Assembly (NCBI GenBank): GCA_002842205.1
Contig: PHCI01000014.1
Location: forward strand, 1 to 64,000
Direction: 5' to 3'
DNA length: 64,000 nucleotides
Origin: Betaproteobacteria bacterium HGW-Betaproteobacteria-3
GTDB lineage: Bacteria > Pseudomonadota > Gammaproteobacteria > Burkholderiales > Burkholderiaceae_C
In this document: positions 4,409-54,161 of the stretch, piece by piece
Layout: every line of letters begins with the position of its first letter
Position numbering within the stretch: position 1 is the stretch's first letter
Notes under the pieces: model-generated
Database searches by the model: none
Told to the model about the DNA's origin: nothing
Seen by the model: the letters and a program-made list of their open reading frames with translations, nothing else
Translations under genes and position numbers: made by a program

Positions 4409-7400
4409 TCAAAGCGGCGCGCTGCCCAGCGTGAAGTAGAAGGTGGCGCCCTCGCCCGGCGCGGACGCGGCCCAGACCCGCCCGCCGTGGCGCGTGACGA
4501 TGCGCTTGACGTTGGCCAGGCCGATGCCGGTGCCCTCGAATTCCGACGGCGAGTGCAACCGCTGGAAGGCGCCGAACAGCTTGTCGGCAAAGGCCATGTC
4601 AAAACCGGCGCCGTTGTCGCGCACAAAAAAAGCGAGCTCACCGTCGTCCAGCGCCCGCTGCCCAATGGTGACTTCCGCGGGCGCCACGTGGGCGGTGAAC
4701 TTCCAGGCGTTGAGCAGCAGGTTCTGCAGCACCTGGCGGATCAGCCGCGGGTCGCCCTGCGCCCGAAGCCCGGGTTCGACCACGGCCCGCACGGCCCGCC
4801 CGGGATGGGCTTCGTGGTTGAGGGCGACCAGCTCCTGCGCCAGCGCGCTCAGGTCAAACGCCTCCCACTTGAGCTCGGCGCGCGAGAGCCGCGACAGGCT
4901 CAGCAGCGCGTCGGTCATGTCGCCCATCTGTTTGATTCCGGTCTGGATGCGGTCCAGGTAGTGCCGGGCCGATGCATTGCCGTCCTCGGCCACGACTTTG
5001 CCCAGAAGATAGGCAAAACCGCTGACCGAACTCAGTGGCTGGCGAATGTCATGCGCCACCGAATAGGAAAACGCCTCCAGCTCCTTGTTGACCGATTCCA
5101 GTTGCGCGGTGCGGTGGCGCACCCGGTCTTCGAGCTGGGTGGTGAGGCGGGTGATCTGCTGCTCGGTGCGCCGCCGCTCGGTGACGTCGTTGACCAGCGC
5201 CAGGCGGGCGTCCTGCCCTTCGAAGACCATGCTGCTGATCGTGGCCTCCACCGTGACGAGGTCGCCGTTTTTCTTGCGCTGCTGCCATTCGAGCGTGCGG
5301 GGCTCCCGGAACGGGCGCGCCAGCGCCTTGCGCAGCCAGGGTTCCATGCTTCTGGACGACATCGTGTCTTCCACCCCCATGGCCAGAAACTCCGCCGGGC
5401 TGTAGCCGTAAAACGCCACGGCAGCCGGGTTGACGGCCACAAAGCGCAGTGTTTCGGGGTTGTACACCCCCATGGGCTGGGGGTTGCTGTCAAACAGCGT
5501 GCGGTATTTTGCGTCGCTCTGGCGCAAGGCGTCGCGGTAACGCAGGTTCACGATGCCAAAGGCCAGGTTGTCGGCCAGCTCCTGGAGCAGCTGCAGTTCG
5601 CCGGTGGGCAGCACCAGCACATCGGTGCGGTACAGCATGAGCAGGCCGAAAGTGGTGGTGCCACTGCGCAGCGGCAGGCTGATCACGCTGCGAAAGCCGC
5701 GCGCAATGGCCGTGTCCCAGCCGCGCCAGCGTGGATTGCGAATGTCGTGGCGCACCTGCGTGCGGCCGGTGCGAATGGTCTGGCCGGTGATGCCGCCGCC
5801 GCCCGGGGCGGTTTCGAGCCAGGTGAGCTGGACGTCCTCCAGGTAGCCGGCACCGTCACCGGCGTAGCGTTGCACTTCAATGCGCCGGTCGGGCCCGTTC
5901 ATGGCGTAACCCACCCACGCCAGGCTGTAGCCGCCCACATCCACCGCGATCTGGCACACGTTTTGCAGCAATTCGCCTTCACCCGTGGCGCGGATCAGGA
6001 CGTCGCTGCCGCGGCTGAGCATCTGCAGCGCCCGGTTGGTGCGCTGCATTTCGCGCTCGACCCGTTTGCGTGCCGACACGTCGGTGTTGATGGTGAACAC
6101 GCCCGTGGGCGCGCCCTGGTCGTTGCGCACCAGCGTCCAGCCCGCTTCCACGGTCAGCCGCTGTCCGGCCTTGGTGCGGTGCTCCAGCTCGCCCGTCCAT
6201 TCGCCTTTTTCGAGCAGCACGCGCATCGCGGTGTGGAACCCGGCCGCATCGCCGTAGGCCAGTTCGAACACGGTGGCGCCAATGGCCTCCGCGGACGACC
6301 AGCCATACAGGCGCTCGGCGCCCTGGTTCCAGAAGACGACGCGGCCTTGCAGGTCGCGCACCACAATCGCGTCGTGCGCCTTGTCCAGCAGTTTGGCCTG
6401 CTCGCGCACCATGGCGCGCGCGCGCAGCGCCGAAATGCCGTAGGCCAGGTTGGACGCCATTTCGCGCAGCACGGCGAGTTCGCGCGCCGGCAGGTCGGCT
6501 TCTTCGGCATAGAACATGGCGAGCACGCCAAAAGTGCGGTCGCCTTCCATCAGCGGCAAGGCAATCAGGCCCCGGTAACCGCGTGCCTTGGCGGCCTGTT
6601 TGCGGCGCTCGTCCGTGGTGTCATTGTGTGCCAGGTCGGGCACCACCACCATCTCGCCACTTCGGATGGCACGCGCCACGGGCAGTTGGCCCCCTGGCGC
6701 ATCGGCGGCCCAGGTCATGGGGTCATTGGTGAGATAGCCGCCGGTGACGGCGTTGAAAGCACGGCGGTCGATGGTTTTGTTTGCGTCGTCCAGGGCATAG
6801 CCCACCCAGGCCAGGCGGGCACCCCCCACCTGAACCGCAACGCCGCAAATCTCTTCCAGCAGCGCCTGCTCATTGTCGGCCCGCATCAGCGCCGCGTTGC
6901 AGCGGCTGGCCATCTCCAGCGCCCGGCTGGCCCGGGCCAGCGCCGCTTCGTCTCGCTTGCGGGCCGTCACGTCCCTGGCGATGCCGTACACACCGACGAT
7001 GTTCTGATTCACCACGATGGGCATGTTGGTGACGAAAAGGGCCACCCGTTGACCGTCGCCACGGCGGCCCACGGTCTCGTAGCTGACCGGGGTGCCGGCT
7101 GCAGCGCGCAGGAACTGGGCCTGCGTGGCGTCGCGCTGCTCGGGCGCAATGAACGGAAGGTAGGGCTGGTTCAGCATGTCAGCCATGGGATACCCGGTCA
7201 GGCGCTCGAGCCCGCCGTTGGCGGTGAGGATGCGGCCCTCCAGGTCGAGCGAATACACGGCGTCGGGGTTCTGGTCGAACAGCGAGCGGAAAATCTGCTC
7301 GTTGAGTTGCAGCGCGGCTTCGCGGGTGGCGCGCTCGATCACCAGCCCGGTCACCTGGGCGACGGTGTCCACCAGTTCCAGCTCATGTGCGCTGGGGGTG

Positions 7401-8203
7401 TGCGGTTCGCGGTGGTACAGGGCGAACGTGCCCAGCACCCGGCCTTGTTGGTCGACCATGGGCGTGGACCAGCAGGCCCGCAAGCCGTGTTGCACGGCAA
7501 GCGCCTTGTAGTCAGCCCACAGCGGGTCCTGGTGGATGTCGCAAACCACCACCCGGGACTTGCGGAACGCCGCAGTGCCACACGAGCCCGCACACGGGCC
7601 GATGGGCAAACCGACCACAGCGCTGTTGTACGCGGCGGGCAGATCGGGGGCGGCACCGTGTTGCAGCAGGCCGTGCTCGTCAAGCAGCAGAACCGATCCC
7701 ATCGCGCCGGGTATCTGCGTTTGCAAAAGCCTGACCGCGTCCGCGAGTTGCTGCGCCAGCGGCTCGCCACGCATGGCCGATTGGCCCAGACGGCCCACCT
7801 GGGCGGCAAAGTCTTCGGCGCGCTTGCGGGGCGAGACGTCTTCGGCAATGGCCATGAGCGCAATCAGCGCCCCATGGGCGTCGCGCCAGGCCGAGACGCT
7901 GACCCGCGAGAACACGATCTCGCCGTTTTTATGCACGTAGCGTTTGTCGCGCACCGAGTTGTCGCGCGCCCCGCTTTGCATTTCGGCCAGCATGGTGCGG
8001 TGGCCGGCCTGCTCGTCCGGGTGGGTCACGGCGGTGGCGGTTCGGGCCAGCAGTTCGGCTTCGGTGTAGCCCAGCATGTCGCAATAGGCGGCGTTGGGCG
8101 CCAGAAACCGGCCGTCCGGCGCGCACACGGCCATGCCCACGGCCGCCCGTGCAAACATCTGCCGGGTGCTTTGAATGCGCTCGTCAAGCGGGGACGTGGT
8201 CAT
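4409..8203 (-). CDS. Multi-PAS/GAF sensor histidine kinase
   Basis: A 1264-residue soluble sensor kinase with no transmembrane segment. From the N-terminus: PAS (1-135), GAF (135-295), PAS (300-420), GAF (430-590), PAS (595-715), GAF (720-885), PAS (890-1010), then HisKA with the phospho-acceptor in YSVAHDIRQPL and HATPase_c with N box NLLLNAWKFT and G2 box GTGIGLANVK. The second and third GAF domains resemble each other (both have LAWVGYA and a following ALPL/SLPL-type block), suggesting internal duplication. There is no receiver domain and no adjacent response regulator, so the partner is encoded elsewhere. Ligands are unknown; several small molecules or light via bilin are possible, but no bilin-binding Cys motif is clear. 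Confidence 0.9.
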   Translation of the reverse strand: MTTSPLDERIQSTRQMFARAAVGMAVCAPDGRFLAPNAAYCDMLGYTEAELLARTATAVTHPDEQAGHRTMLAEMQSGARDNSVRDKRYVHKNGEIVFSRVSVSAWRDAHGALIALMAIAEDVSPRKRAEDFAAQVGRLGQSAMRGEPLAQQLADAVRLLQTQIPGAMGSVLLLDEHGLLQHGAAPDLPAAYNSAVVGLPIGPCAGSCGTAAFRKSRVVVCDIHQDPLWADYKALAVQHGLRACWSTPMVDQQGRVLGTFALYHREPHTPSAHELELVDTVAQVTGLVIERATREAALQLNEQIFRSLFDQNPDAVYSLDLEGRILTANGGLERLTGYPMADMLNQPYLPFIAPEQRDATQAQFLRAAAGTPVSYETVGRRGDGQRVALFVTNMPIVVNQNIVGVYGIARDVTARKRDEAALARASRALEMASRCNAALMRADNEQALLEEICGVAVQVGGARLAWVGYALDDANKTIDRRAFNAVTGGYLTNDPMTWAADAPGGQLPVARAIRSGEMVVVPDLAHNDTTDERRKQAAKARGYRGLIALPLMEGDRTFGVLAMFYAEEADLPARELAVLREMASNLAYGISALRARAMVREQAKLLDKAHDAIVVRDLQGRVVFWNQGAERLYGWSSAEAIGATVFELAYGDAAGFHTAMRVLLEKGEWTGELEHRTKAGQRLTVEAGWTLVRNDQGAPTGVFTINTDVSARKRVEREMQRTNRALQMLSRGSDVLIRATGEGELLQNVCQIAVDVGGYSLAWVGYAMNGPDRRIEVQRYAGDGAGYLEDVQLTWLETAPGGGGITGQTIRTGRTQVRHDIRNPRWRGWDTAIARGFRSVISLPLRSGTTTFGLLMLYRTDVLVLPTGELQLLQELADNLAFGIVNLRYRDALRQSDAKYRTLFDSNPQPMGVYNPETLRFVAVNPAAVAFYGYSPAEFLAMGVEDTMSSRSMEPWLRKALARPFREPRTLEWQQRKKNGDLVTVEATISSMVFEGQDARLALVNDVTERRRTEQQITRLTTQLEDRVRHRTAQLESVNKELEAFSYSVAHDIRQPLSSVSGFAYLLGKVVAEDGNASARHYLDRIQTGIKQMGDMTDALLSLSRLSRAELKWEAFDLSALAQELVALNHEAHPGRAVRAVVEPGLRAQGDPRLIRQVLQNLLLNAWKFTAHVAPAEVTIGQRALDDGELAFFVRDNGAGFDMAFADKLFGAFQRLHSPSEFEGTGIGLANVKRIVTRHGGRVWAASAPGEGATFYFTLGSAPL

Positions 8204-8228
8204 CGTGGCGGGATCGGTGCCTTTGGTT

Positions 8229-8246
8229 GGGGCTGGGGCTGGGGCT
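8229..8246 (+). repeat. Tandem GGGGCT hexamer, three copies
   Basis: Three perfect copies of GGGGCT, preceded by a partial GGTT, lie 26 bases upstream of the sensor kinase start. On the plus strand the G runs could form a G-quadruplex. Repeat number may vary by slippage. Confidence 0.7.
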
Positions 8247-8390
8247 GAAAGAGCTGCGATCTTCCCATGCCACTATAAGCCCTGACGTTGCAACCGAACC
8301 ACGCATCAATCCAGCAATCGTGACGTATTTCCAGAAATGACCGACGCTGTTGCCCTGGCGGCAGCCTTCCATCCATGTCGGCATTTACTA

Positions 8391-8450
8391 TAATAGTAGT
8401 AGCAAACTATTACCATTTGGCGGGGGCTTCGGCCTGAAAAAGCTTAAAAT
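8391..8450 (+). repeat. Family A mini-repeat, intergenic
   Basis: Reads AGTAGCAAACTATTACCATT, then TGGCGGGGGCTTCGGCC and an AAGCTTAAAAT end. It lies in the 264-bp gap between the SDR stop (8468) and the sensor kinase start (8203). An AT-rich TACTATAATAGT run borders its left side. Confidence 0.8.
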
Positions 8451-8467
8451 CTGCGTGCCCAAGGCAT

Positions 8468-9373
8468 TCAAGCCGCGCGCAGGGCCGATCTGAGCTTTTC
8501 ACCGATGTCGGGCCGCGACTCGAACGGGTCGGGCGGGTTGGTGCCCGCCACGGTGGCTTCCAGGCGCCGCTGCACCGACCCGAGCGCATGGGGGTGGCTG
8601 TAGATGTAGAAGGTGTCGGCCGCCACCGCATCAAACACCTTTTGCGCCATGTCGGCCGCCGTCACCTTGCCGCTGCCCACGGCCTTGTCGTTCATGGCCT
8701 GGCCGATGAGCTGGCTTTGCGTGGGCTGGTCGGCCGCCAGTTCGCCGGGGCGGTTGCGGTGGCTCTGGTGGATGCCGGTGGCGATGAAATACGGGCACAG
8801 CACGCTGCAGCTGATCTGGTCGCTCACGAGGTGCAGGTCGTGGTAGAGGGTTTCGGTCAGCGACACCACGGCGCTCTTGCTCACGTTGTAGATGCCCATG
8901 TTGGGCGGCACCGTCAGCCCGGCCATGCTGGCGGTGTTGACGATGTGGCCGCGCCAGGCTGGGTCTTGGGCCGCGGCGGCCAGCATCATGGGGGTGAACA
9001 GCCGCACGCCGTGCACGACGCCCCACAGGTTGACGCCCAGCACCCATTCCCAGTCCTTGACGGTGTTCTCCCAGACCAGGCCGCCGGCGCCCACGCCGGC
9101 GTTGTTGAACACGAAATGCGGTGCCCCGAAGCGCTTTTGCACTTCCAGCGCGAGCGCCTCCATCTGCACGGCGTCGGCCACGTCCACCTGGCGCGCCAGC
9201 ACGTGCGCGCCCGTTGCCAGCATTTCGGCGCTGGCGCGGTCGAGCGCGTCCTGCTGCACGTCCACCAGCACGAGGTTCATGCCCAGGCGGGCGCCAATGC
9301 GCGCGCATTCCAGCCCGAAACCCGAGCCGGCACCGGTGAGTACGGCGGTTTTGCCTTTGAAATCCGTGATCAT
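8468..9373 (-). CDS. SDR family oxidoreductase
   Basis: A 301-residue classical short-chain dehydrogenase/reductase. The NAD(P)-binding motif is TGAGSGFG near residues 12-19, the structural NNAG is at about residue 90, and the catalytic set is Ser (NTASMAG) and Tyr-x-x-x-Lys (YNVSKSA). Its ATG at 9373 overlaps the stop of the upstream GST gene by 4 bases, so the two are translationally coupled. Membership in the acyl-CoA block suggests a lipid or aromatic alcohol substrate, but that is only context. Confidence 0.9.
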   Translation of the reverse strand: MITDFKGKTAVLTGAGSGFGLECARIGARLGMNLVLVDVQQDALDRASAEMLATGAHVLARQVDVADAVQMEALALEVQKRFGAPHFVFNNAGVGAGGLVWENTVKDWEWVLGVNLWGVVHGVRLFTPMMLAAAAQDPAWRGHIVNTASMAGLTVPPNMGIYNVSKSAVVSLTETLYHDLHLVSDQISCSVLCPYFIATGIHQSHRNRPGELAADQPTQSQLIGQAMNDKAVGSGKVTAADMAQKVFDAVAADTFYIYSHPHALGSVQRRLEATVAGTNPPDPFESRPDIGEKLRSALRAA

Positions 9374-10320
9374 GTGTCTGCTTTCTTCAAGATGTAGCCC
9401 ATACGGGGAAAGTGCACGTGCAAGCTGCCCGCCCGCGGATCGGTGCGGCGCAGGGTGTAGCGGGTGCGGGTGGCGGCGATGAGTTCGCCTTCGGTCGGCT
9501 CGGGGCCGAAGCTCTCGGACGTCACGGTCACATGGCTGCCCAAGGCAAGGCCGTGCTCGTCCTGGAAGGTTTCGTCGTGCAGCGGTGCCGGGGTGCTGGC
9601 CGCCGCCAGGGCGATCGCCTCGGGGGCCGAAAATCGCGTCATGTCGCCCTGCCCCGTGGCGGCCAGGCGGTCCATCCAGGCCAGCACGGCGGGCGTGGCG
9701 TCCAGAATGCCGGCCATGACCGACGCGCAGTGCCGGGTGAACCACAGCGGATGGTAGACGGCGTAGTCGGCCACGCAGGGCGCGTCGCCCAGCAGGTAAT
9801 CCTGGCCGTCGAGCATGTGGGCCAGGCGTCGCAGATAACTCTTGTAGGCGGCCGCGGCGTCGGCGGGCGGCAGGCGCGGCTGGCCCAGCCGCATCTTGCC
9901 GCGGTCTTCGGCGAAGGCCTTGGCTTCGGCGGCCCAGGCCTCGGGGGGTCGCCCGCCGCCCAGCACCTGGGCCACGCCGGCCGGGCTGAAGTTGTAGGCC
10001 ATGGCAACCCAAAACAGTTTTTCGTCGGCCCATTGCGCCAGGATGCGCGCCAGCCCCTTGTTTTGCGCGGGGTACAGCGTGGGCGTGGGCTGCAGGTGCT
10101 CGAGCACGTCGCAGATCAGCGCGGTGTCGCAGTAGATGTCAGCACCGATCTGCAGAAACGGCGTCTTGCGGTAGCCGCCGGTGAGCGCGACCACGTCGGG
10201 TTTGGGCAGGGTGCGCGGCACGATCACCGATTTCCAGGCGAGTTTCTTGGCGCCCAGGATCAGGCGCACTTTCTCGGAGAACGGTGAGGTGGCGTAATGG
10301 TGGAGGATCAGGTCGGCCAT
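9370..10320 (-). CDS. Glutathione S-transferase family protein
   Basis: 316 residues. The N-terminal thioredoxin-like GST fold is clear (YATSPFSEKVRLILG, GYRKTPFLQIG, DTALICDVLE with the conserved Asp-Thr-Ala in the glutathione site). An alpha-helical GST C-domain follows (LLGDAPCVADYAVYH) and then an extra roughly 90-residue tail of unknown role. The ATG at 10320 begins the conserved fold. A tract of G10, T8 and G8 lies just upstream, and no Shine-Dalgarno sequence is visible. It precedes the SDR gene with a 4-base overlap. Confidence 0.88.
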   Translation of the reverse strand: MADLILHHYATSPFSEKVRLILGAKKLAWKSVIVPRTLPKPDVVALTGGYRKTPFLQIGADIYCDTALICDVLEHLQPTPTLYPAQNKGLARILAQWADEKLFWVAMAYNFSPAGVAQVLGGGRPPEAWAAEAKAFAEDRGKMRLGQPRLPPADAAAAYKSYLRRLAHMLDGQDYLLGDAPCVADYAVYHPLWFTRHCASVMAGILDATPAVLAWMDRLAATGQGDMTRFSAPEAIALAAASTPAPLHDETFQDEHGLALGSHVTVTSESFGPEPTEGELIAATRTRYTLRRTDPRAGSLHVHFPRMGYILKKADT

Positions 10321-10328
10321 GGTGTGCA

Positions 10329-10357
10329 GGGGGGGGGGTGGTTTTTTTTGGGGGGGG
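10329..10357 (+). repeat. Homopolymer cluster G10-TGG-T8-G8
   Basis: Three long mononucleotide runs lie in the 67-bp gap between the AidB-like stop (10388) and the GST start (10320). They would be read as C8A8..C10 in the mRNA leader of the GST gene. Such tracts are prone to slippage. They could also reflect sequencing error; raw reads would show which. Confidence 0.8.
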
Positions 10358-10387
10358 TGAGACGGTCGTCCGTGCGCGGTGGGCGGG

Positions 10388-12151
10388 TCAGCGCGGTGCG
10401 GCACGGGTGAGGATGGCGTCCAGGTCGGCGCCCGTGCCCAGCGTGCCAAAGGCGCGGCCGCCCTGGGCATCGGCCAGGCGGGATTCACAGAACGCGCTGA
10501 ACACGGCGGGCGGTGCCGACTGCGCCAGCAGCGCCGCCTGCACCGCCAGGGCCACGTTTTGGGCCAGGCGCCGCGCTTCCAGCTCGGTGGCCATGGCGTC
10601 CACCTGCAGGGGCAGGCTGGCGGCCAGCCGGTCGAGTGCCGGGTGCAGGCCACGGGCGGGCGCCAGTTCGTGGGCCAGCGCGGCGGCGGCGTCGGCCTGG
10701 CGCAGGGCGCGCAGCAAGTCGATGGCCATGATGTTGCCCGCCCCCTCCCAGATGGAATTGACCGGCATTTCGCGGTAGATGCGGGCCATGATGCCTTCGC
10801 CGCCCTCTTCCACGTAGCCGTTGCCGCCCAGGCATTCCATGGCCTCCTGTGCAAAGGCGCTGCCGCGCTTGCAGACCCAGTATTTGGCCACCGGGGTCAG
10901 CAGCCGGGCCATCGCGCGTTCGTGGGCATCGTCAGGGTGGTCGAAGGCCCGCGCCAGCCGCAGGGCCAGCGCCGTGGCGGCTTCGCTTTCAAGGGCCAGA
11001 TCGGCCAGCACGTTGCGCATCAGGGGCTGGTCGATCAGGCGCTTGCCAAAGGCCTGGCGCTGCGCCGTGTGGTCGAGCGCGATGGCCAGCGCCTGGCGCA
11101 TCAGCCCGCTGGTGCCCAGCGCGCAGTCGAGCCGCGTCATCGTGCCCATGGCCAGGATTTGCGGCACGCCGCGCCCCTCTTCGCCCACCCGCCAGGCGGT
11201 GGCACCGGCAAACTCGACCTCGGAGCTGGCATTGGCCTGGTTGCCCAGCTTGTCCTTGAGCCGCTGGATGTGGATGGCGTTGAGCGCGCCCGCGCCACCG
11301 CAAGGCGCTGCCCATGGCGGCAGCACCCGCGGCAGGAACAGGCAGCTCAGGCCGCCCGGCGTCTGCGCGAGGATGAGAAAGGCGTCGCACATGGGTGCCG
11401 ACATGAACCACTTGTGGCCCGTCACGCGGTAGCGCGCGCCCCAGGCATCGGTGCCGTCGGGTGCGGCGGCCGTGGTGTTGGCGCGCACGTCCGAGCCGCC
11501 CTGCTTTTCGGTCATGCCCATGCCCATGGTCAGGCCGGGTTTGTCTGAAAACAGTTTCAGCGCGGGATCGTAGGCACGGCTCGTGAGGCCAGGCGCCCAG
11601 TCGGCGTAGAGGGCGGCGTTGGCGCGCAGCGCGGGGGTGACGGCGTAGGTCATCGAGATCGGGCACAGGATGGAGGGCTCGAGCTCGGTGAACAGCATGA
11701 ACCCGGCCGCCCGCAACACGTGGGGCGATGCCCCGGGCGCCCCCAGCGCCGACGAGCCGCCGCCGGTCGCGCGCGCCGTCTCGGGGCGCAGCGAGGGCAG
11801 GTCAGTGGCGGGCGCGGGGGGCACCGGTTCGGCCCACGGTGTGCCGTGCAGCCCGGCCCCGGTGGCCGCCGACATCAGCGCGTGGTAACTGGGGTGGAAT
11901 TCGACCGCGTCGATGCGGTGGCCCAGCCGGTCGTGGCTGCGCAACGCGGGGGGGTGCACGTTGGCCAGGCGCGCATGGGTCTGCATGTCGGCCGTGCCCA
12001 GCCGCTCGCCGAGCGCCGCCAAAGCGGCGGTGTCCAGCGCGGGCGCGTTGAACTTCAGCGCATCGCGCAGGCCCTGATTGCCGGTGAACAGGTTGTAGTT
12101 GACCAGCGGTTCGGGCTGGTTGAAAACCTCGTGCGTTACTTGCATGCCCAT
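10388..12151 (-). CDS. aidB: AidB-like acyl-CoA dehydrogenase
   Basis: About 587 residues from the ATG at 12151 (a second ATG two codons in is possible). The match to E. coli AidB is seen in GMTEKQGGSDVRANTT, GHKWFMSAP, the FAD-domain block ECLGGNGYVEE and PVNSIWEGAGNIM. AidB is a flavoprotein of the acyl-CoA dehydrogenase superfamily that binds DNA and is linked to alkylation resistance, with only weak isovaleryl-CoA dehydrogenase activity. Here it sits among acyl-CoA genes, so a metabolic role is also possible. Confidence 0.88.
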   Translation of the reverse strand: MGMQVTHEVFNQPEPLVNYNLFTGNQGLRDALKFNAPALDTAALAALGERLGTADMQTHARLANVHPPALRSHDRLGHRIDAVEFHPSYHALMSAATGAGLHGTPWAEPVPPAPATDLPSLRPETARATGGGSSALGAPGASPHVLRAAGFMLFTELEPSILCPISMTYAVTPALRANAALYADWAPGLTSRAYDPALKLFSDKPGLTMGMGMTEKQGGSDVRANTTAAAPDGTDAWGARYRVTGHKWFMSAPMCDAFLILAQTPGGLSCLFLPRVLPPWAAPCGGAGALNAIHIQRLKDKLGNQANASSEVEFAGATAWRVGEEGRGVPQILAMGTMTRLDCALGTSGLMRQALAIALDHTAQRQAFGKRLIDQPLMRNVLADLALESEAATALALRLARAFDHPDDAHERAMARLLTPVAKYWVCKRGSAFAQEAMECLGGNGYVEEGGEGIMARIYREMPVNSIWEGAGNIMAIDLLRALRQADAAAALAHELAPARGLHPALDRLAASLPLQVDAMATELEARRLAQNVALAVQAALLAQSAPPAVFSAFCESRLADAQGGRAFGTLGTGADLDAILTRAAPR

Positions 12152-47814: not shown

Positions 47815-48828
47815 CTAGCGGGTCGTGGTGACCTTGCGCAGCGACGGATGCTCGTCGGGATTGATGCCATAACGCCCGGCAAGATCGGCGCAGGCGAGTT
47901 GCGCGATGTACGCCAGCAATGCGGTACGAGCCCATCGTGCCTCGGGAAACGGCAGCGGCACATGCGCTTCGGGCGTCTGGTCCGAGCCAAGACAAAGGAA
48001 GGGCACCCCCCGAGCCAGCAATGCTGCGGTCACGGCCTGCTTGCTCTGCATCGGATCAATGGCCCCCGAAAACAGTATCACGCGATCTTCGGGGTTTGCC
48101 GACGCGATCGGCCCGTGAAGGTACTCGGCCATGGAGTAGCCGCATGACGGTATGCCGACGCTCTCCTGCATCTTGAGGGCAGCGTCCAGCGCACCGCCAT
48201 ACGACGGCCCGCGGGCCAACCAGGTGACGGTGCGTGCGCCAACCAGGAAATCCGCCAACTTGGCAGGCACTCCTTCCGCGTCGATCCGAAGCAGGCATTC
48301 CGCCACCTCGTTGGCGGCGGCTTCGATGTCGTATCCGGCCAAAGCCGCTGCCACGAAGAGTTGTGCGATCACGCTCTTGGTCGCAGGGACGGCGCGCTCG
48401 GGGCCGCAACCGAGGCGAAGGATGTGATGGGCGGGCTTGAGCAGGTGTGCATCGGCGGAATCGGCCTCGGAAATCGCCACCACCGACGCTCCGTGCGCAC
48501 CAAGCCATTCGGCTGAAGCGGCGACGTCGGTGGACTTGCCCGAGAAGGAAAATGCGTAGACCACCGCGTCGCTCCAGTCCGCGTCAGGCAGCGGCTGAGT
48601 CGTCAGCCACGGCCTGAACTCGATCGGCTGGCGCCCGGTTTGCAGCGCGAACAAATAGGATGCGAACGTGCAAACGTTGCCCGAACTCCCACGGCCGACC
48701 AGTACGGCCAGCGGGCGCCCCGCCACCTGGCGGCGGATTTCACCGGCTTCGCGCTGCCAGCGCGCCGCTTGCGAACGAAGCACCTGTGGTGCCGAGCGAG
48801 CCTCAAGGGCCATGTGACTGTTGGACAT
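47815..48828 (-). CDS. SIS-domain sugar isomerase/deaminase, NagB-II-like
   Basis: 337 residues with two SIS folds, like the isomerase half of GlmS without the glutaminase. Seen: GRGSSGNVCTFASY near residue 46, the FSFSGKSTDV sugar-phosphate loop, PATKSVIAQL, ESVGIPSCGYSMAEYLHGP and the C-terminal INPDEHPSLRKVTTT, a form typical of NagB-II/AgaS proteins. It would convert glucosamine-6-phosphate to fructose-6-phosphate, releasing ammonia. The ATG at 48828 is next to the LmbE stop (48830). It is the last gene of the ggpPS operon. Confidence 0.85.
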   Translation of the reverse strand: MSNSHMALEARSAPQVLRSQAARWQREAGEIRRQVAGRPLAVLVGRGSSGNVCTFASYLFALQTGRQPIEFRPWLTTQPLPDADWSDAVVYAFSFSGKSTDVAASAEWLGAHGASVVAISEADSADAHLLKPAHHILRLGCGPERAVPATKSVIAQLFVAAALAGYDIEAAANEVAECLLRIDAEGVPAKLADFLVGARTVTWLARGPSYGGALDAALKMQESVGIPSCGYSMAEYLHGPIASANPEDRVILFSGAIDPMQSKQAVTAALLARGVPFLCLGSDQTPEAHVPLPFPEARWARTALLAYIAQLACADLAGRYGINPDEHPSLRKVTTTR

Positions 48829-48829
48829 G

Positions 48830-49666
48830 TCATGCCTCCGTGGGGGTTGGGGGTGCAACCGGTTGTGCCCGCCAGTAGAACTCGCTGGGCAATTTGGCGT
48901 GCTGATATCCGGTGATGCGGGCGCGCATGCCTTCGTCGTCGCCGAACAGCGCCGGCACCTGGCTGGCGTAATGTCGCAACAGGGCCATCTTGCCGTCCAC
49001 GTCCACCGGTACCGAGAAATGCCTGGCTGGCGCCAGCCGCAGGCGGGCCAGTGCCTCGCGCGGACCGTCGCGGTCGCCGCGACCAATACGGGGGTCGGCG
49101 ACGTAGGGGAAATCTTCGTAAAACATCAGCGAGGCACCGGCCGCCGCGAGTCGAACGGCCACTTGCGCGGTAATCTGGTGATCCACGTGATGACCAATCC
49201 CCATGGGGCTCAGGAGCAGGATGCCGCCAAGGTCAAGGCAGATGCGTCGCAGCACCAGATACAGCTCCTCGATGTGTGCCATGTCGTCGACACGCGGCGA
49301 ATCCCAGCGCTCGCGCTCGTTGCGATAGATCAGTTTTCCCGTCAACGGGCTCCTGCGATAGATGCCGTCGGAAAAGCTGAGATGCACGAAGTCGGCATTG
49401 ACCGAATGCATCGCCGCGATATCTTCGCGCCGACGAAGCTGCGGACTCACATGGCCTCTGCGATGTGGCAACTTTCTGCTGCCGTCAGCGGCCGTGACGC
49501 GCAGGGTGCCGCAGCATATGCTCACCACCAGGGTCGAAACACGCCCCTGCAGCGCGTGCAGCAAACCACCGCAACTCAATGCCGCGTCGTCGAGATGCGG
49601 CGACAGGATCACCACACGCTCAAAATCTTTCCAGTCCAGTCGATCCAGGAGGGGAACGGTTCTCAT
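48830..49666 (-). CDS. PIG-L/LmbE family N-deacetylase
   Basis: 278 residues. The zinc site is visible as SPHLDDAALSCGG near residues 22-34 (PHxDD) and GIGHHVDHQ near residue 160 (the later His). LmbE proteins remove acetyl groups from N-acetylglucosamine-type sugars or conjugates, as MshB and BshB do. It overlaps the GH4 gene by 4 bases and is followed at once by the SIS gene, so the deacetylated amino sugar would feed that enzyme. Confidence 0.88.
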   Translation of the reverse strand: MRTVPLLDRLDWKDFERVVILSPHLDDAALSCGGLLHALQGRVSTLVVSICCGTLRVTAADGSRKLPHRRGHVSPQLRRREDIAAMHSVNADFVHLSFSDGIYRRSPLTGKLIYRNERERWDSPRVDDMAHIEELYLVLRRICLDLGGILLLSPMGIGHHVDHQITAQVAVRLAAAGASLMFYEDFPYVADPRIGRGDRDGPREALARLRLAPARHFSVPVDVDGKMALLRHYASQVPALFGDDEGMRARITGYQHAKLPSEFYWRAQPVAPPTPTEA

Positions 49667-50946
49667 AGGAAACTTGGCAACAGGGCACCATAGGTCTCGC
49701 GGGCCCTCGCGAGCATGCGAAGGGCGACGGGCTCACCGCCGACCAGTGGGTTGGCGGCCAGCGCCGTCACCAACGCCTGAGCATCGGCGCCAGCAGCGCC
49801 CGCGGCGGCTCGGGCCGTCAGAAGTTGGTAGCGTTCCAGTTGCGCGGCCAGATGGTCAAAAGACGCGGGCATCGATGGTGCCGAGATGCGCTCGACACCT
49901 GCACGCGAGACCCGCACACGGGTTTCGATCACCGTTTGCGGCGCGAACGCCGCGGTCGCCCCATGATTGGGGAGGTTGAGCACCAGTTCGCTGGGGGTGG
50001 CAGATGCCAGGGCCCGAATCACGGTGACGGCCATGTCGCCAAACCCAGGCGATCCGCGGAACCAGCGCAATTGCGGCCGGGCGTTTTTCCCTTCGGCCTC
50101 GAAGTGCGCGTAGTACCGGCCCAGTGAAGCGGCAACCACATCGCTGCGCGGCCCCACCCGACGCGCCTGTTCGACAAAAGCATCCGGAAAAAGGTAATAA
50201 GGAAGATACGAGTTGGGCCAATAGCCAGGATTCTCGCGGGCCAGACGCAGCGAGAGTTCAAATCGCAGCTGGTGCTCCTCGTCGTATTCCCGAGGCGCCA
50301 CCAGCGGGGCAGAAATATCCGCCAGCGCTACACCGTCGATCACGATGTCGCTGTACCACGTGGCGTGATTCAGACCGTTGCAACGAAACGCATACGCCCC
50401 CCGACGACCTAACGCCTGACCAATCGCCTGCAGGTCTTCATCGGATTGATCGCACATGCCAATGACGTTCACGCCGCCGAAATCGGTCAGCGCCTGAGTG
50501 ACAATATTGCTCGGATTGGTGTAGTTGAGAATCGTTGCCTTGGGCGCCAGCGCCTTGACCACCGCGGCAACGCGCAACGCCTCAGGCACCGACCGCAACG
50601 CAAAAAAGAACCCCCCCGGGCCGACGGTCTCCTGACCGGGGATGCCAAACTCCAGCGGCAGGGTTTCGTCGATGCGCCGCGCCGTCAGACCGCCAGGGCG
50701 TGTCGAGTTCAGAACCAGGTCAGCCCCCTCGATCGCCGCTTCCAGCGTACCAGCGACTTCCACGCTGAACGTGCCGGCGTCCCGCGCCATCGCTGCGGTC
50801 AGTCGCCCGACCATCGCCAGTCGCGCCGCATCGGTGTCATACAGCCGAACGGTTTTGAGGGGCAATTCCGCCGCGTGCTGAATCAGCGCCTGCAGCAGGC
50901 CCGGGGTGTAGGCGCTACCTCCGCCCAGGACAGTCAGGACTTCCAT
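49663..50946 (-). CDS. Glycoside hydrolase family 4, NAD-dependent
   Basis: 427 residues. GH4 enzymes use NAD and a metal and act by oxidation and elimination. The N-terminal Rossmann motif is VLGGGSAYTPGLLQAL; later blocks are NYTNPSNIVTQAL, GMCDQSDED (metal-binding Cys region) and GLNHATWY with the metal-binding His. Members cleave alpha- or beta-glucosides, galactosides or their 6-phosphates. The linkage cannot be told. It overlaps the PfkB gene by 13 bp and the LmbE gene by 4. Confidence 0.9.
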   Translation of the reverse strand: MEVLTVLGGGSAYTPGLLQALIQHAAELPLKTVRLYDTDAARLAMVGRLTAAMARDAGTFSVEVAGTLEAAIEGADLVLNSTRPGGLTARRIDETLPLEFGIPGQETVGPGGFFFALRSVPEALRVAAVVKALAPKATILNYTNPSNIVTQALTDFGGVNVIGMCDQSDEDLQAIGQALGRRGAYAFRCNGLNHATWYSDIVIDGVALADISAPLVAPREYDEEHQLRFELSLRLARENPGYWPNSYLPYYLFPDAFVEQARRVGPRSDVVAASLGRYYAHFEAEGKNARPQLRWFRGSPGFGDMAVTVIRALASATPSELVLNLPNHGATAAFAPQTVIETRVRVSRAGVERISAPSMPASFDHLAAQLERYQLLTARAAAGAAGADAQALVTALAANPLVGGEPVALRMLARARETYGALLPSFL

Positions 50947-51812
50947 TCCATCTCCTCCATTAAACCGGCCATGATTCTCGGGTCGAGGACCAGTCCACCG
51001 GTTTGGCTCAAAATTCGGGCTGAGGCACGCGTACCGAGCCGAACCGCTTCGATGGGTGTGGCACCACGTACCAGGCCCGCAATCAAGCCGCCACAGAACG
51101 CGTCGCCAGCGCCGGTCGGATCCCGCATTTGCGCGGGCGCGGCGTCGACCCGCAGGTCTACGCCATTCAGCACACCGAAAACACCATTGGCCCCCAGCGT
51201 CACCAGCACCGAGCTGGATGCCGCTGCCAGTCGCTGCGGCGTCGTCGCGACGTCGCTGCAGGCCGCATGTGCCTCTTTTTCGTTGAGGACCAGCAGGTCC
51301 CAGGGGTGCCCGCCCAGTCCGCAGAGCCGGCTGAGTTGACGCGGGCTCCAGCTTGCACTCACGGAAATGCGTGCACCATCCTGCCTGGCCGCGGCCAACG
51401 GCGACCCCAGACGGTCAGCTTCTTCGAGCCCCGGCACATGCACCCAGGCACTCCGAGGCAACCGCCGCACCCGTGTCAGCACCTCCAGTTCGGCCGTGCT
51501 CACGAACGATCGATCGTTGGCATCGGCAAAAACCAGCGAGATGGCCGGGTTGTCCGGCGCGGCCAAGGGTTCGAGCGTGATGCCAAGGCGTTGCGCCAGG
51601 ATCTCCACCGCCTGATCGACAATGCCACGTCCCATCGGAACGCACAGTGTCACCTTCAGCCCCAGGGCGGCGGCAACCGACGCGGTATTGAGCGCCCCCC
51701 CAAGGGCCAGTTGGATGCCGTCCACAAACAGTTCTTCACCTGGCGCAGGGCGTGCATGGGGCGGTACGAACACTTCAAAGTAGGCCATGCCCACCACAAC
51801 GAGATCACTCAT
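50934..51812 (-). CDS. PfkB family carbohydrate kinase
   Basis: 292 residues of the ribokinase/PfkB fold. The N-terminal signature region is QLALGGALNTASVAAALG, and the C-terminal one is DPTGAGDAFCGGLIAG, with the catalytic base Asp in GAGD. It phosphorylates a sugar or sugar derivative, possibly the amino sugar or glucose released by the GH4 enzyme. It starts 48 bp after ggpPS ends. Confidence 0.9.
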   Translation of the reverse strand: MSDLVVVGMAYFEVFVPPHARPAPGEELFVDGIQLALGGALNTASVAAALGLKVTLCVPMGRGIVDQAVEILAQRLGITLEPLAAPDNPAISLVFADANDRSFVSTAELEVLTRVRRLPRSAWVHVPGLEEADRLGSPLAAARQDGARISVSASWSPRQLSRLCGLGGHPWDLLVLNEKEAHAACSDVATTPQRLAAASSSVLVTLGANGVFGVLNGVDLRVDAAPAQMRDPTGAGDAFCGGLIAGLVRGATPIEAVRLGTRASARILSQTGGLVLDPRIMAGLMEEMEWKS

Positions 51813-51860
51813 GCGCGCACCTCGAACCCGGCGTGACCTGGCACACCCGCCGTCGCTCTG

Positions 51861-54161
51861 TCACGAAGCCTGCACCGCTTGCATGAATTCATTCCCCCAG
51901 TGGGCCACGTCATTGGATTCCACGATGGCCGCCATGCGCTGGCACCGGTATTCGGCTTCGTCAGGCGCCATCGTGAGGGCCTGATACAGTGTTTTTGACA
52001 TCGAGCTCGCATCGTAGGGGTTGGTCAGCAGCGCGCCGTGAAGCTCCACTGCGGCGCCCGCAAATTCCGAGAGAATCAGCACGCCAGGCTTGCCGGTGGA
52101 TTTCTTGGTGGCCACAAACTCCTTGGCAACAAGGTTGAGCCCGTCCCGCAGCGGAGTGATCCACGCGACGTCGCATGCCGCGTAATGCGCGATCACGTCC
52201 TCATAGGGGAGCGAGCGATAGAAATAGCGCACCGGTGTCCACTCAAGCGTTGAAAACCGGCCATTGATCCGGCCGACGATCCGGTCAACCTCAACGCGAA
52301 GGTTTTCGTAAATCTCCATGCCAGGCGCTGCCGGCGTGATGATGTTGAGCAAGGTCACGCCACCCACCAGTTCGGGATGCTCCTCCAGCAGACGCTCGAA
52401 GGCCTGCAGCTTTTCGAGTGAACCCTTGACATAATCGAGTCGCTCGATCGAGACGATCCCCTTGGCACCGTCCAGCAGCGTATCAATCCTGGCAATCTTT
52501 TTTTGCACGGCAGGCTTGGCGACCAGTTGCCGGATCAGCCCCACGTCGATTCCCACCGGATGCGCGCCCAGCGTCACACGACGGCCAGCGACCTCGATCA
52601 CCGAAGTCATCGAGTCCACCCCAAGGGCGCAGCCGTAGGTCACGAACCGGGGTGCACAAGGCACCGTTTCAAGCACGTCGAGCGGTGTGTACGAGCGCAC
52701 CGCATCCACGAAATTCTCGACATAACGCGGAATGTGAAAGCCCACGTAATCGCACTGCAGCAGGCTGCCGATGATGTCGCGCCGCCAGGGGAGGATGTTG
52801 AACACGTCGCTGGACGGAAACGCGGTGTGGTGGAAAAAAGCGATCCGCAGGTCGGGCCTCAACGGTCGCAGGAACGCCGGCACCATCCACAGGTTGTAAT
52901 CGTGAACCCAGACGACGGCGCCTTCGGCGGCCTCACGCGCGGTCTGCTCGGCAAAAATCCGGTTGACTTCCAGATAGCGCTCCCAATGCGCCTGCTCAAA
53001 TTCAGCCTTGTCGGGAAACGAGAAGATGATGGGCCAGAACGCCTCTTTCGAGAATTTTTTGTAGAACACGTCGACGTCGTCTTCTGTCAGCGCAATGCGG
53101 GCGACCTGCAGATTCGGATAGCGCCGGGCGTCCACCGAAACGTGCCGCGCGAAACCCTCAGGTTCCCGGCTGTCCTGCATGGACCATGCCACCCACGATC
53201 CCTTGCGTGTGCCGGCAAAAAAACCAAGCAGTGTCGGAATGATGCCGTTGGGACTCTTGGGCCGTTTCTGCTTGACCACGCCGTCTTCCAGTACCTCGTC
53301 GAACGGCGGCCGGTGGTACACCATGACGAGGTCGGCTTCGCCCCGTTCGTCCATGCGTCGCTGGGCAGTTTCGCTGCTTTTCACCAGCGTGCCATGGTGG
53401 GAAAGCCCTGCCAGTATTCCGCCACAGCCTTCGTCTTTGGCAACAAATACGCGCGGCATCTTGCGAACCCGTTCCACCAGCGCGGATTCGGCGCCACCGA
53501 CCACGATGCCCCGAAAGCCCGTGGTGTACATGGACAGATCGTTGAGTGTGTCTCCCGCCACGATCACGGATTCAAAGTCGAACCCCTCGGCCTGCGCGAG
53601 CAGGCGCAGCGTTGAGCCCTTGCTGACGCCACGCGGCAGAACGTCCAGGTAGCGGTCGGCAGAAAAAAGAAGATCGCAGTCGAGCGCGTCAACGGCTGCA
53701 CGCAATTCATCGCTGATGCCGCCTTCATTGACGAAGAACGAACAGCGTCGCTCCTGTGGCACGGTCTGCCGCAACAAAACCGGAAATCTGGCGAGCGCCT
53801 GCAGCACGTGGTGTGATCCGGGCCACCGAGCGGCGATGTCGTGATGCAGCGGGTCCACGGGCCGCAGGTCGCCATAGAGAACCGTCGCCCCGACGTCGGC
53901 AATGATGTAGTCGGGTTTGGGCAGCGTTGAATCGCTGAGCAGGGGAATGATGGATTCCAGCCCTCGGCCGGTCACATACACCAGCTTGGCGCCAGGCAGG
54001 CCGCCACTGAACAGGTCACGGATTTGGCGCCGTGTCGCCTGCGTACCCGCAAGCAGGGTGCCGTCCAGGTCAGTCGCCAGCACCAGGCGGCCCATGGGTT
54101 CGCACGCGGTGTCCAGGGCTTCGGGGGTTGCCGGATTCGGCTGCAGGTCAAGAGTGAGCAA
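51861..54161 (-). CDS. ggpPS: Glucosylglycerol-phosphate synthase/phosphatase fusion GgpPS
   Basis: 766 residues. The first roughly 265 form a HAD phosphatase (ATDLDGTLLAG near residue 29; GDTLNDLSMY later). The rest is a GT20 glycosyltransferase beginning VMVYHRPPFDEV and containing SPNGIIPTLLGFF, WVHDYNLWMVPAFLRP, SIERLDYVKGSLEKLQAF and LRDGLNLVAKEFVA. The RPPFDE and SPNGI motifs mark glucosylglycerol-phosphate synthases rather than trehalose-phosphate synthases. The pair would join ADP-glucose and glycerol-3-phosphate, then remove phosphate to give glucosylglycerol, an osmolyte. The start is a TTG at 54161, chosen because AAGGAG lies 8 bases before it and no ATG fits. Confidence 0.88.
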   Translation of the reverse strand: MLTLDLQPNPATPEALDTACEPMGRLVLATDLDGTLLAGTQATRRQIRDLFSGGLPGAKLVYVTGRGLESIIPLLSDSTLPKPDYIIADVGATVLYGDLRPVDPLHHDIAARWPGSHHVLQALARFPVLLRQTVPQERRCSFFVNEGGISDELRAAVDALDCDLLFSADRYLDVLPRGVSKGSTLRLLAQAEGFDFESVIVAGDTLNDLSMYTTGFRGIVVGGAESALVERVRKMPRVFVAKDEGCGGILAGLSHHGTLVKSSETAQRRMDERGEADLVMVYHRPPFDEVLEDGVVKQKRPKSPNGIIPTLLGFFAGTRKGSWVAWSMQDSREPEGFARHVSVDARRYPNLQVARIALTEDDVDVFYKKFSKEAFWPIIFSFPDKAEFEQAHWERYLEVNRIFAEQTAREAAEGAVVWVHDYNLWMVPAFLRPLRPDLRIAFFHHTAFPSSDVFNILPWRRDIIGSLLQCDYVGFHIPRYVENFVDAVRSYTPLDVLETVPCAPRFVTYGCALGVDSMTSVIEVAGRRVTLGAHPVGIDVGLIRQLVAKPAVQKKIARIDTLLDGAKGIVSIERLDYVKGSLEKLQAFERLLEEHPELVGGVTLLNIITPAAPGMEIYENLRVEVDRIVGRINGRFSTLEWTPVRYFYRSLPYEDVIAHYAACDVAWITPLRDGLNLVAKEFVATKKSTGKPGVLILSEFAGAAVELHGALLTNPYDASSMSKTLYQALTMAPDEAEYRCQRMAAIVESNDVAHWGNEFMQAVQAS

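Follow-up and report, generated by a model that had tools for sequence, protein, structure and literature searches.

A ggpPS operon of Burkholderiales and Myxococcota that may couple synthesis and dismantling of a glycosylglycerol-type compatible solute

Why should a gene for the synthesis of an osmolyte be packed against four genes of amino-sugar character? The question is raised by positions 1 to 64,000 of contig PHCI01000014.1 from Betaproteobacteria bacterium HGW-Betaproteobacteria-3, a stretch analysed as a whole and called the window below, in which five open reading frames, all on the minus strand, run from 54161 to 47815 in the order ggpPS, PfkB, GH4, PIG-L, SIS. We propose a conserved osmoadaptation operon that would couple the synthesis and the dismantling of a glycosylglycerol-type compatible solute, a proposal that seems to us about evenly balanced between right and wrong. 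The gene set, its conservation, the active-site residues that are kept and the osmotic neighbourhood in relatives are observations; in the scheme built upon them, we infer every reaction, the order of the reactions and every substrate. The five genes are the following.

51861 to 54161, minus strand: ggpPS, an N-terminal HAD phosphatase fused to a C-terminal GT20 glucosylglycerol-phosphate synthase (766 amino acids; Pfam, TIGR02398)
50934 to 51812, minus strand: PfkB-family sugar kinase (292 amino acids; Pfam PfkB 85.7 bits; NxxE and GAGD motifs)
49663 to 50946, minus strand: GH4 NAD-dependent glycosidase (427 amino acids; Pfam Glyco_hydro_4 and 4C; C165, H194, Y247, R267)
48830 to 49666, minus strand: PIG-L (LmbE) family N-deacetylase (278 amino acids; Pfam PIG-L 44.1 bits; H24, D26, D27, H160, D162, H163)
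47815 to 48828, minus strand: SIS-domain protein, NagB-II-like, putative glucosamine-6-phosphate deaminase (337 amino acids; Pfam SIS; NF046059 104.8 bits)

An earlier note, made from the letters alone (the sequence-only reading), had listed these five genes as tightly packed and named the first ggpPS. Open reading frames and Pfam agree with the list and its packing: ggpPS and PfkB are separated by 48 base pairs, PfkB overlaps GH4 by 13 and GH4 overlaps PIG-L by 4, and one base stands between PIG-L and SIS. The name of the first gene is borne out by the fusion of the phosphatase (S6PP, residues 25-257) to GT20 (Glyco_transf_20, 279-764) and by a score of 690.8 bits on the NCBIfam equivalog TIGR02398, for a cut-off of 569. 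Its start codon is TTG, with AAGGAG eight bases before it; for SIS we selected an ATG start, the mechanical open reading frame being longer. Searched against Rfam with gathering scores as the threshold, the window had no match; a promoter scan stayed at the level of shuffled sequence, while a terminator scan stood about one standard deviation above it.

Conservation and osmotic neighbourhood

Genome contigs scanned with the PIG-L protein yielded 17 loci, of which 14 (L002-L015) are used as module loci, PIG-L standing there, within the limits of each contig, together with other genes of the module. GH4 added three loci, L049 (genome G237), L114 (G823) and L130 (G1315), where PIG-L is present as well. 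Isolates bearing the module include Janthinobacterium sp. CG3, Massilia eurypsychrophila and Comamonadaceae G21597-S1. Module counts omit L017 and L018, which have PIG-L only (33-36% identical), and L016, which is kept in the residue checks; L054 belongs to the genome of L011, counted once. L016 (9956-11856), in a metagenome-assembled genome titled Proteobacteria, has a pair of PIG-L and SIS without GH4 or PfkB. Among plasmid relatives of PIG-L, three of 11 records (28-33% identical) were looked at; they place the gene beside ABC transporter and Gfo/Idh/MocA genes, with no GH4 in the stretch.

How constant is the association with ggpPS? Fifteen loci, window included, have sequence beyond PfkB (L008, L009 and L015 end before ggpPS and are left out), and every one of them sits in a GgpPS-bearing genome. 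The sequence-only reading had staked itself on conservation of the whole set elsewhere, and the set does recur in Burkholderiales and Myxococcota, with ggpPS upstream, on the same strand and within about 530 bases in 13 of the 15 (window, L002-L007, L010-L013, L114, L130). The spacing to PfkB is 486-528 bases in L003-L007, with a bacterial SH3 protein inside it in L003. L114 has a gene order identical to that of the window, plus a Na+/solute symporter, and its ggpPS is cut by the contig end; its genome shares a phylum with that of L014, which the tree output names Myxococcota. In L014 ggpPS is convergent and lies about 2 kb from SIS, a symporter in between, and in G237 it is found on a separate contig (L050) from the module (L049).

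In 399 genomes of the family of the window, both GgpPS domains occur in six and a close GH4 (E <= 1e-100) in three, all three within the six (hypergeometric 1.9e-6, genomes being treated as independent). The module GH4 is found in 2 of 379 genomes of the order at the same threshold, and in 2 of 195 genomes of the L014 phylum with E below 1e-170. Three genomes, G371, G248 and G321, have GgpPS and no GH4 that we found. The ten GgpS loci of the phylum survey other than the window were read along a stretch that holds no further gene of the module; for L068 this stretch measures just 4.9 kb. Another nine GH4 of the L014 phylum (E 1e-65 to 1e-80, one being a second GH4 of G823) have neither PIG-L nor PfkB nor a module-type SIS within the part that was read. 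The module is rare and patchy, and the association of its genes is real, beyond chance.

The neighbours of the module in relatives suggest a context for it. Of the 15 Burkholderiales loci with sufficient sequence after the module, 11 have an MscS-type channel there (L003-L010, L012, L013, L130; L002, which ends just after SIS, is excluded), which points to osmoadaptation; none was seen by eye in the window, L011, L015 or L049. L005 has a glycine-betaine binding protein and ABC genes upstream, L003 and L007 have ABC genes of similar look by eye, and both Myxococcota loci, L014 and L114, have Na+/solute symporters. The sequence-only reading had noted the lack of any transporter or regulator; this stands for the window, where def and glnD flank the operon, and falls for the relatives, with their MscS, betaine-type ABC and symporter genes. 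Two loci of this survey deserve a separate mention: L053 (G321, 7217-11349) has ggpP and ggpS as separate genes, with a Na+/solute symporter behind them that may serve glucosylglycerol uptake, and L011 has, from 12217 onward, genes that by eye resemble those of phage tails or contractile injection systems, after the module SIS.

A symporter might also mean that the four genes serve a chitobiose-like catabolism of amino-disaccharides, working without a phosphotransferase system and only carried along and co-regulated with ggpPS. The logic would parallel that of ChbG and ChbF, and the symporter does end the Myxococcota operon. No sugar-type transporter was seen, however, beside the Burkholderiales loci (by eye except where scanned), and the co-occurrence with GgpPS holds in G237 even though the genes are unlinked. 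We regard this account as quite improbable; chitin use as the main role is less likely.

The four enzymes after ggpPS

What could these enzymes do together? From its family membership, GgpPS would join a nucleotide sugar to glycerol 3-phosphate and strip the phosphate. PIG-L would remove, inside the cell, the acetyl group of an N-acetyl-amino-sugar glycoside, PfkB would phosphorylate C6 of the deacetylated glycoside, GH4 would split the 6-phospho-glycoside by its NAD- and metal-dependent redox-elimination, and SIS would convert the glucosamine 6-phosphate released into fructose 6-phosphate and ammonia, a linear route of four enzymes that may clear or recycle the solute once osmotic stress ends. 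For PIG-L, PfkB, GH4 and SIS, an amino-sugar substrate is the most economical reading.

The order of the steps is suggested by GH4, which has the GH4 domains, the NAD motif, the metal Cys and His and the base residues, and where C165, H194, Y247 and R267 are kept in 16 of 16 relatives. Its best matches among solved structures are 6-phospho-glucosidases. R267 and Y247 align with Arg285 and Tyr265 of GlvA, of which the arginine has a role toward the phosphate. R267 recurs in ChbF and in the GH4 of Deinococcus and Nonomuraea, and MelA, a non-phospho enzyme, lacks it. The metal motif is of the CD type, as in GlvA, which marks alpha-6-phospho enzymes. Since GlvA and BglT require 6-phospho substrates (PMC10628242), the arginine favours an action of PfkB before GH4. 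Held in common with 6-phospho-specific GH4 enzymes, it suggests that phosphorylation precedes cleavage, against the cleavage-first order that had been put forward earlier. Module GH4 sequences fall on one side of a branch with support 100/100, and the Deinococcus GH4 joins the module clade with support 100/99, in a tree that is small and only midpoint-rooted; the gene of this Deinococcus enzyme adjoins one for a glucosamine-6-phosphate deaminase and another for a BadF-type kinase. Another GH4 of the L014 phylum lies beside a YdjC-family protein (L115, genome G812, 6876-9087), a second pairing of deacetylase and GH4.

The other active sites are kept too. The NxxE and GAGD motifs of PfkB are retained by all 15 relatives whose sequence extends over them, and PIG-L keeps H24, D26, D27, H160, D162 and H163 in all of the 17 or 18 covering relatives, L016 included; both HxDD and HxDH, which we take to be the zinc-site motifs of the family, are present in the PIG-L of the window. 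The solved structures matched by PIG-L include the glycopeptide pseudoaglycone deacetylases Dbv21 and Orf2, together with one chain named deacetylase. Such names show PIG-L enzymes in biosynthesis elsewhere, and with the tight packing against ggpPS they could mean that the module converts glucosylglycerol or another solute into an amino-sugar osmolyte, instead of degrading it. Yet the five genes include no aminotransferase, GgpPS is their only glycosyltransferase, and the chemistry of GH4 and of a SIS deaminase is degradative, so that we hold a biosynthetic route to be very improbable.

As for the released sugar, the evidence comes from SIS. It scores 104.8 bits on NF046059 (NagB-II), for a cut-off of 430, and, staying below this threshold, is called no more than NagB-II-like. 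E222, H238 and K332, presumably the catalytic Glu, His and Lys as in the GlmS isomerase, occur in every one of 15 relatives, counting L016, and the two SIS relatives whose surroundings were examined adjoin nagA. In two module genomes, G423 (L012) and G424 (L013), a search of the whole genome at E <= 1e-20 showed no SIS like that of the module; their nag loci hold a kinase (160-176 bits on the NagK model, cut-off 370), a NagA over its cut-off and a SIS protein (277-282 on NagB-II, cut-off 430). Judged from the two loci read, G1315 likewise has the module without such a SIS; it has a NagA over cut-off and a nag locus alike by eye. NagA thus occurs, with a SIS gene and a BadF-type kinase gene, in three of three SIS-less genomes, G1315 having been tested after the pattern was seen in the other two, and over its cut-off in none of 15 SIS-bearing module genomes, of which 11 are titled metagenome-assembled and may have gaps. 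Oxalobacteraceae account for two of the SIS-less genomes, and the third, G1315, belongs to family f8; L015, titled Oxalobacteraceae, with SIS present and NagA absent, serves as a partial control. The pattern gives moderate support to glucosamine 6-phosphate as the product. It helps, as do the amino-sugar genes that adjoin distant relatives of GH4 and SIS, a chain of deacetylase, kinase, GH4 and NagB-II-like deaminase, which fits the chemistry of amino sugars.

Could the module simply degrade ordinary glucosylglycerol? PfkB would then make the 6-phosphate, GH4 would yield glucose 6-phosphate and glycerol, PIG-L and SIS would have side jobs, and the whole would replace the GghA of cyanobacteria or the GGP of Marinobacter. 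GgpPS is a good member of TIGR02398, and GH4 has the CD-type metal motif of GlvA, with its alpha-6-phospho meaning. Breakdown genes adjoin ggpS or ggpPS in cyanobacteria and in Marinobacter, and glucosylglycerol breakdown in other heterotrophs has been termed mysterious (PMC6753628, PMC10873239). This account, however, leaves PIG-L and SIS jobless in spite of the kept active-site residues that were checked, and does not explain the amino-sugar neighbours of GH4 and SIS relatives; we consider it unlikely.

Donor and product of GgpPS

Which sugar does GgpPS transfer? In a tree, the module-clade enzymes fall on one side of a branch with support 96/94, the label 'module' wrongly taking in L051, whose genome shows no GH4. 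Twelve columns are fixed in 12 module-clade sequences, and their residues turn up in no more than 2 of the 16 other sequences, L083 giving no match in this comparison. Because L051 shares the five of these columns that were looked up, though its genome shows no module GH4, the columns mark a clade, and they were dismissed as a guide to donor specificity. They adjoin what we take to be the acceptor and base sites; the predicted structure of the GT20 domain (mean predicted local distance difference test score 62.7, with long stretches below 50) was too poor for residues to be placed on it and was not used.

No GlgC over cut-off is found in the genome of the window; it is missing at that level from five of eight module genomes (window included) and from eight of 12 other GgpS genomes, and present in 7 of 20 GgpS-selected genomes as against 7 of 14 controls. 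The Synechocystis GgpS requires ADP-glucose and does not use UDP-glucose (PMC6004087). With 13 of 20 GgpS genomes lacking a GlgC over cut-off, it may be asked whether ADP-glucose is the donor, and glucosylglycerol the product, for all TIGR02398 enzymes. On a Kitasatospora plasmid (L080, NZ_CP108290.1, 7651-11133), an actinobacterial fusion of HAD and GT20 with about 38% identity to GgpPS adjoins a carbohydrate kinase; similar fusions on Streptomyces plasmids have no such neighbour.

A doubtful possibility is that this clade uses UDP-N-acetylglucosamine. It would then make N-acetylglucosaminyl-glycerol, an undescribed osmolyte perhaps stored as cationic glucosaminyl-glycerol after the action of PIG-L; PfkB and GH4 would split the latter into glucosamine 6-phosphate and glycerol, and SIS would return fructose 6-phosphate. 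The five genes would be the whole life cycle of one compound, a single substrate for all of them. This is in line with the GlgC missing from the window genome and other module genomes and with clade residues near the acceptor and base sites; it is weakened by the similar lack of GlgC in other GgpS genomes, by L051 and by the unchanged glucose contacts described next.

Returning to the coupling of synthesis and dismantling, several observations weigh against it. Ordinary glucosylglycerol should have no amino sugar, so that no single compound as yet joins GgpPS to the other four. The glucose-contact positions of OtsA (H155 and the stretch D362-L366, in a numbering that includes the initial Met) are unchanged in module GgpPS, apart from Leu/Met at 364. 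No NCBIfam equivalog passed for the catabolic four, PfkB, GH4, PIG-L and SIS, and the tree of GH4 came with a warning of long branches. In G371 the GgpPS belongs to the module clade, but no GH4 was found. Family membership confounds the link between SIS and NagA: G042, of family f8 like G1315, has NagA without the module, and NagA is found in 7 of 33 sampled genomes of the family of the window. The module SIS scores far below the SIS proteins of nag operons (104.8 vs 277-282), so its substrate may differ, and plain equivalence is disfavoured. Finally, no osmotic gene stands beside the window operon, and module-free GgpS loci also have MscS (L051, L052) or a symporter (L053), hence these genes accompany GgpS rather than the module alone. 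Of the osmolyte and amino-sugar interpretation given by the sequence-only reading, what finds support is a set conserved in two phyla, an osmotic neighbourhood in relatives and a chain of enzymes that fits amino-sugar chemistry; cleavage as the first step is made less likely.

Relation to known systems

Among the open-access papers listed, judged by title and abstract start, none appeared to describe this gene set, and none came up under glucosaminyl-glycerol or N-acetylglucosaminyl-glycerol, which is weak evidence of absence, subscription papers being mostly outside. Glycosylglycerol breakdown in heterotrophs other than Marinobacter is described as unclear (PMC10873239), and the operon common to Burkholderiales and Myxococcota is a specific candidate for it. 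It suggests an amino-sugar glycoside as part of osmoadaptation, and hints at a new way to make or recycle a protectant.

A likeness in layout is found in the Marinobacter pair ggpPS-ggp, with a degradation gene directly after ggpPS (PMC10873239); Marinobacter has one GH13_18 phosphorylase, whereas the window has four unrelated genes of amino-sugar character. In the cyanobacterial ggpS-gghA, synthesis and degradation genes are also co-located, but with a single hydrolase and separate ggpS and ggpP, the available portion of the article reporting no PIG-L, GH4, PfkB or SIS there (PMC6753628). Neither GghA nor GGP is among the five genes, a genome-wide search not having been made.

The chb operon of Escherichia coli, judged from its annotation, is alike in combining a deacetylase, ChbG, with a GH4, ChbF (27% identical to that of the window), which acts on a mono-acetylated 6-phosphate. 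It differs in having phosphotransferase system genes and no SIS, PfkB or GgpPS; neither a phosphotransferase system nor ChbG, which we take to be a YdjC-family protein, is found among the five window genes. The NagK-NagA-NagB-II operon shares the SIS-type deaminase, there with nagA, and differs in that its deacetylase is of the NagA type and its kinase of the BadF type; in L101, L102 and L137 none of GH4, PIG-L and PfkB adjoins it. It is this operon that occurs here where the module is without SIS.

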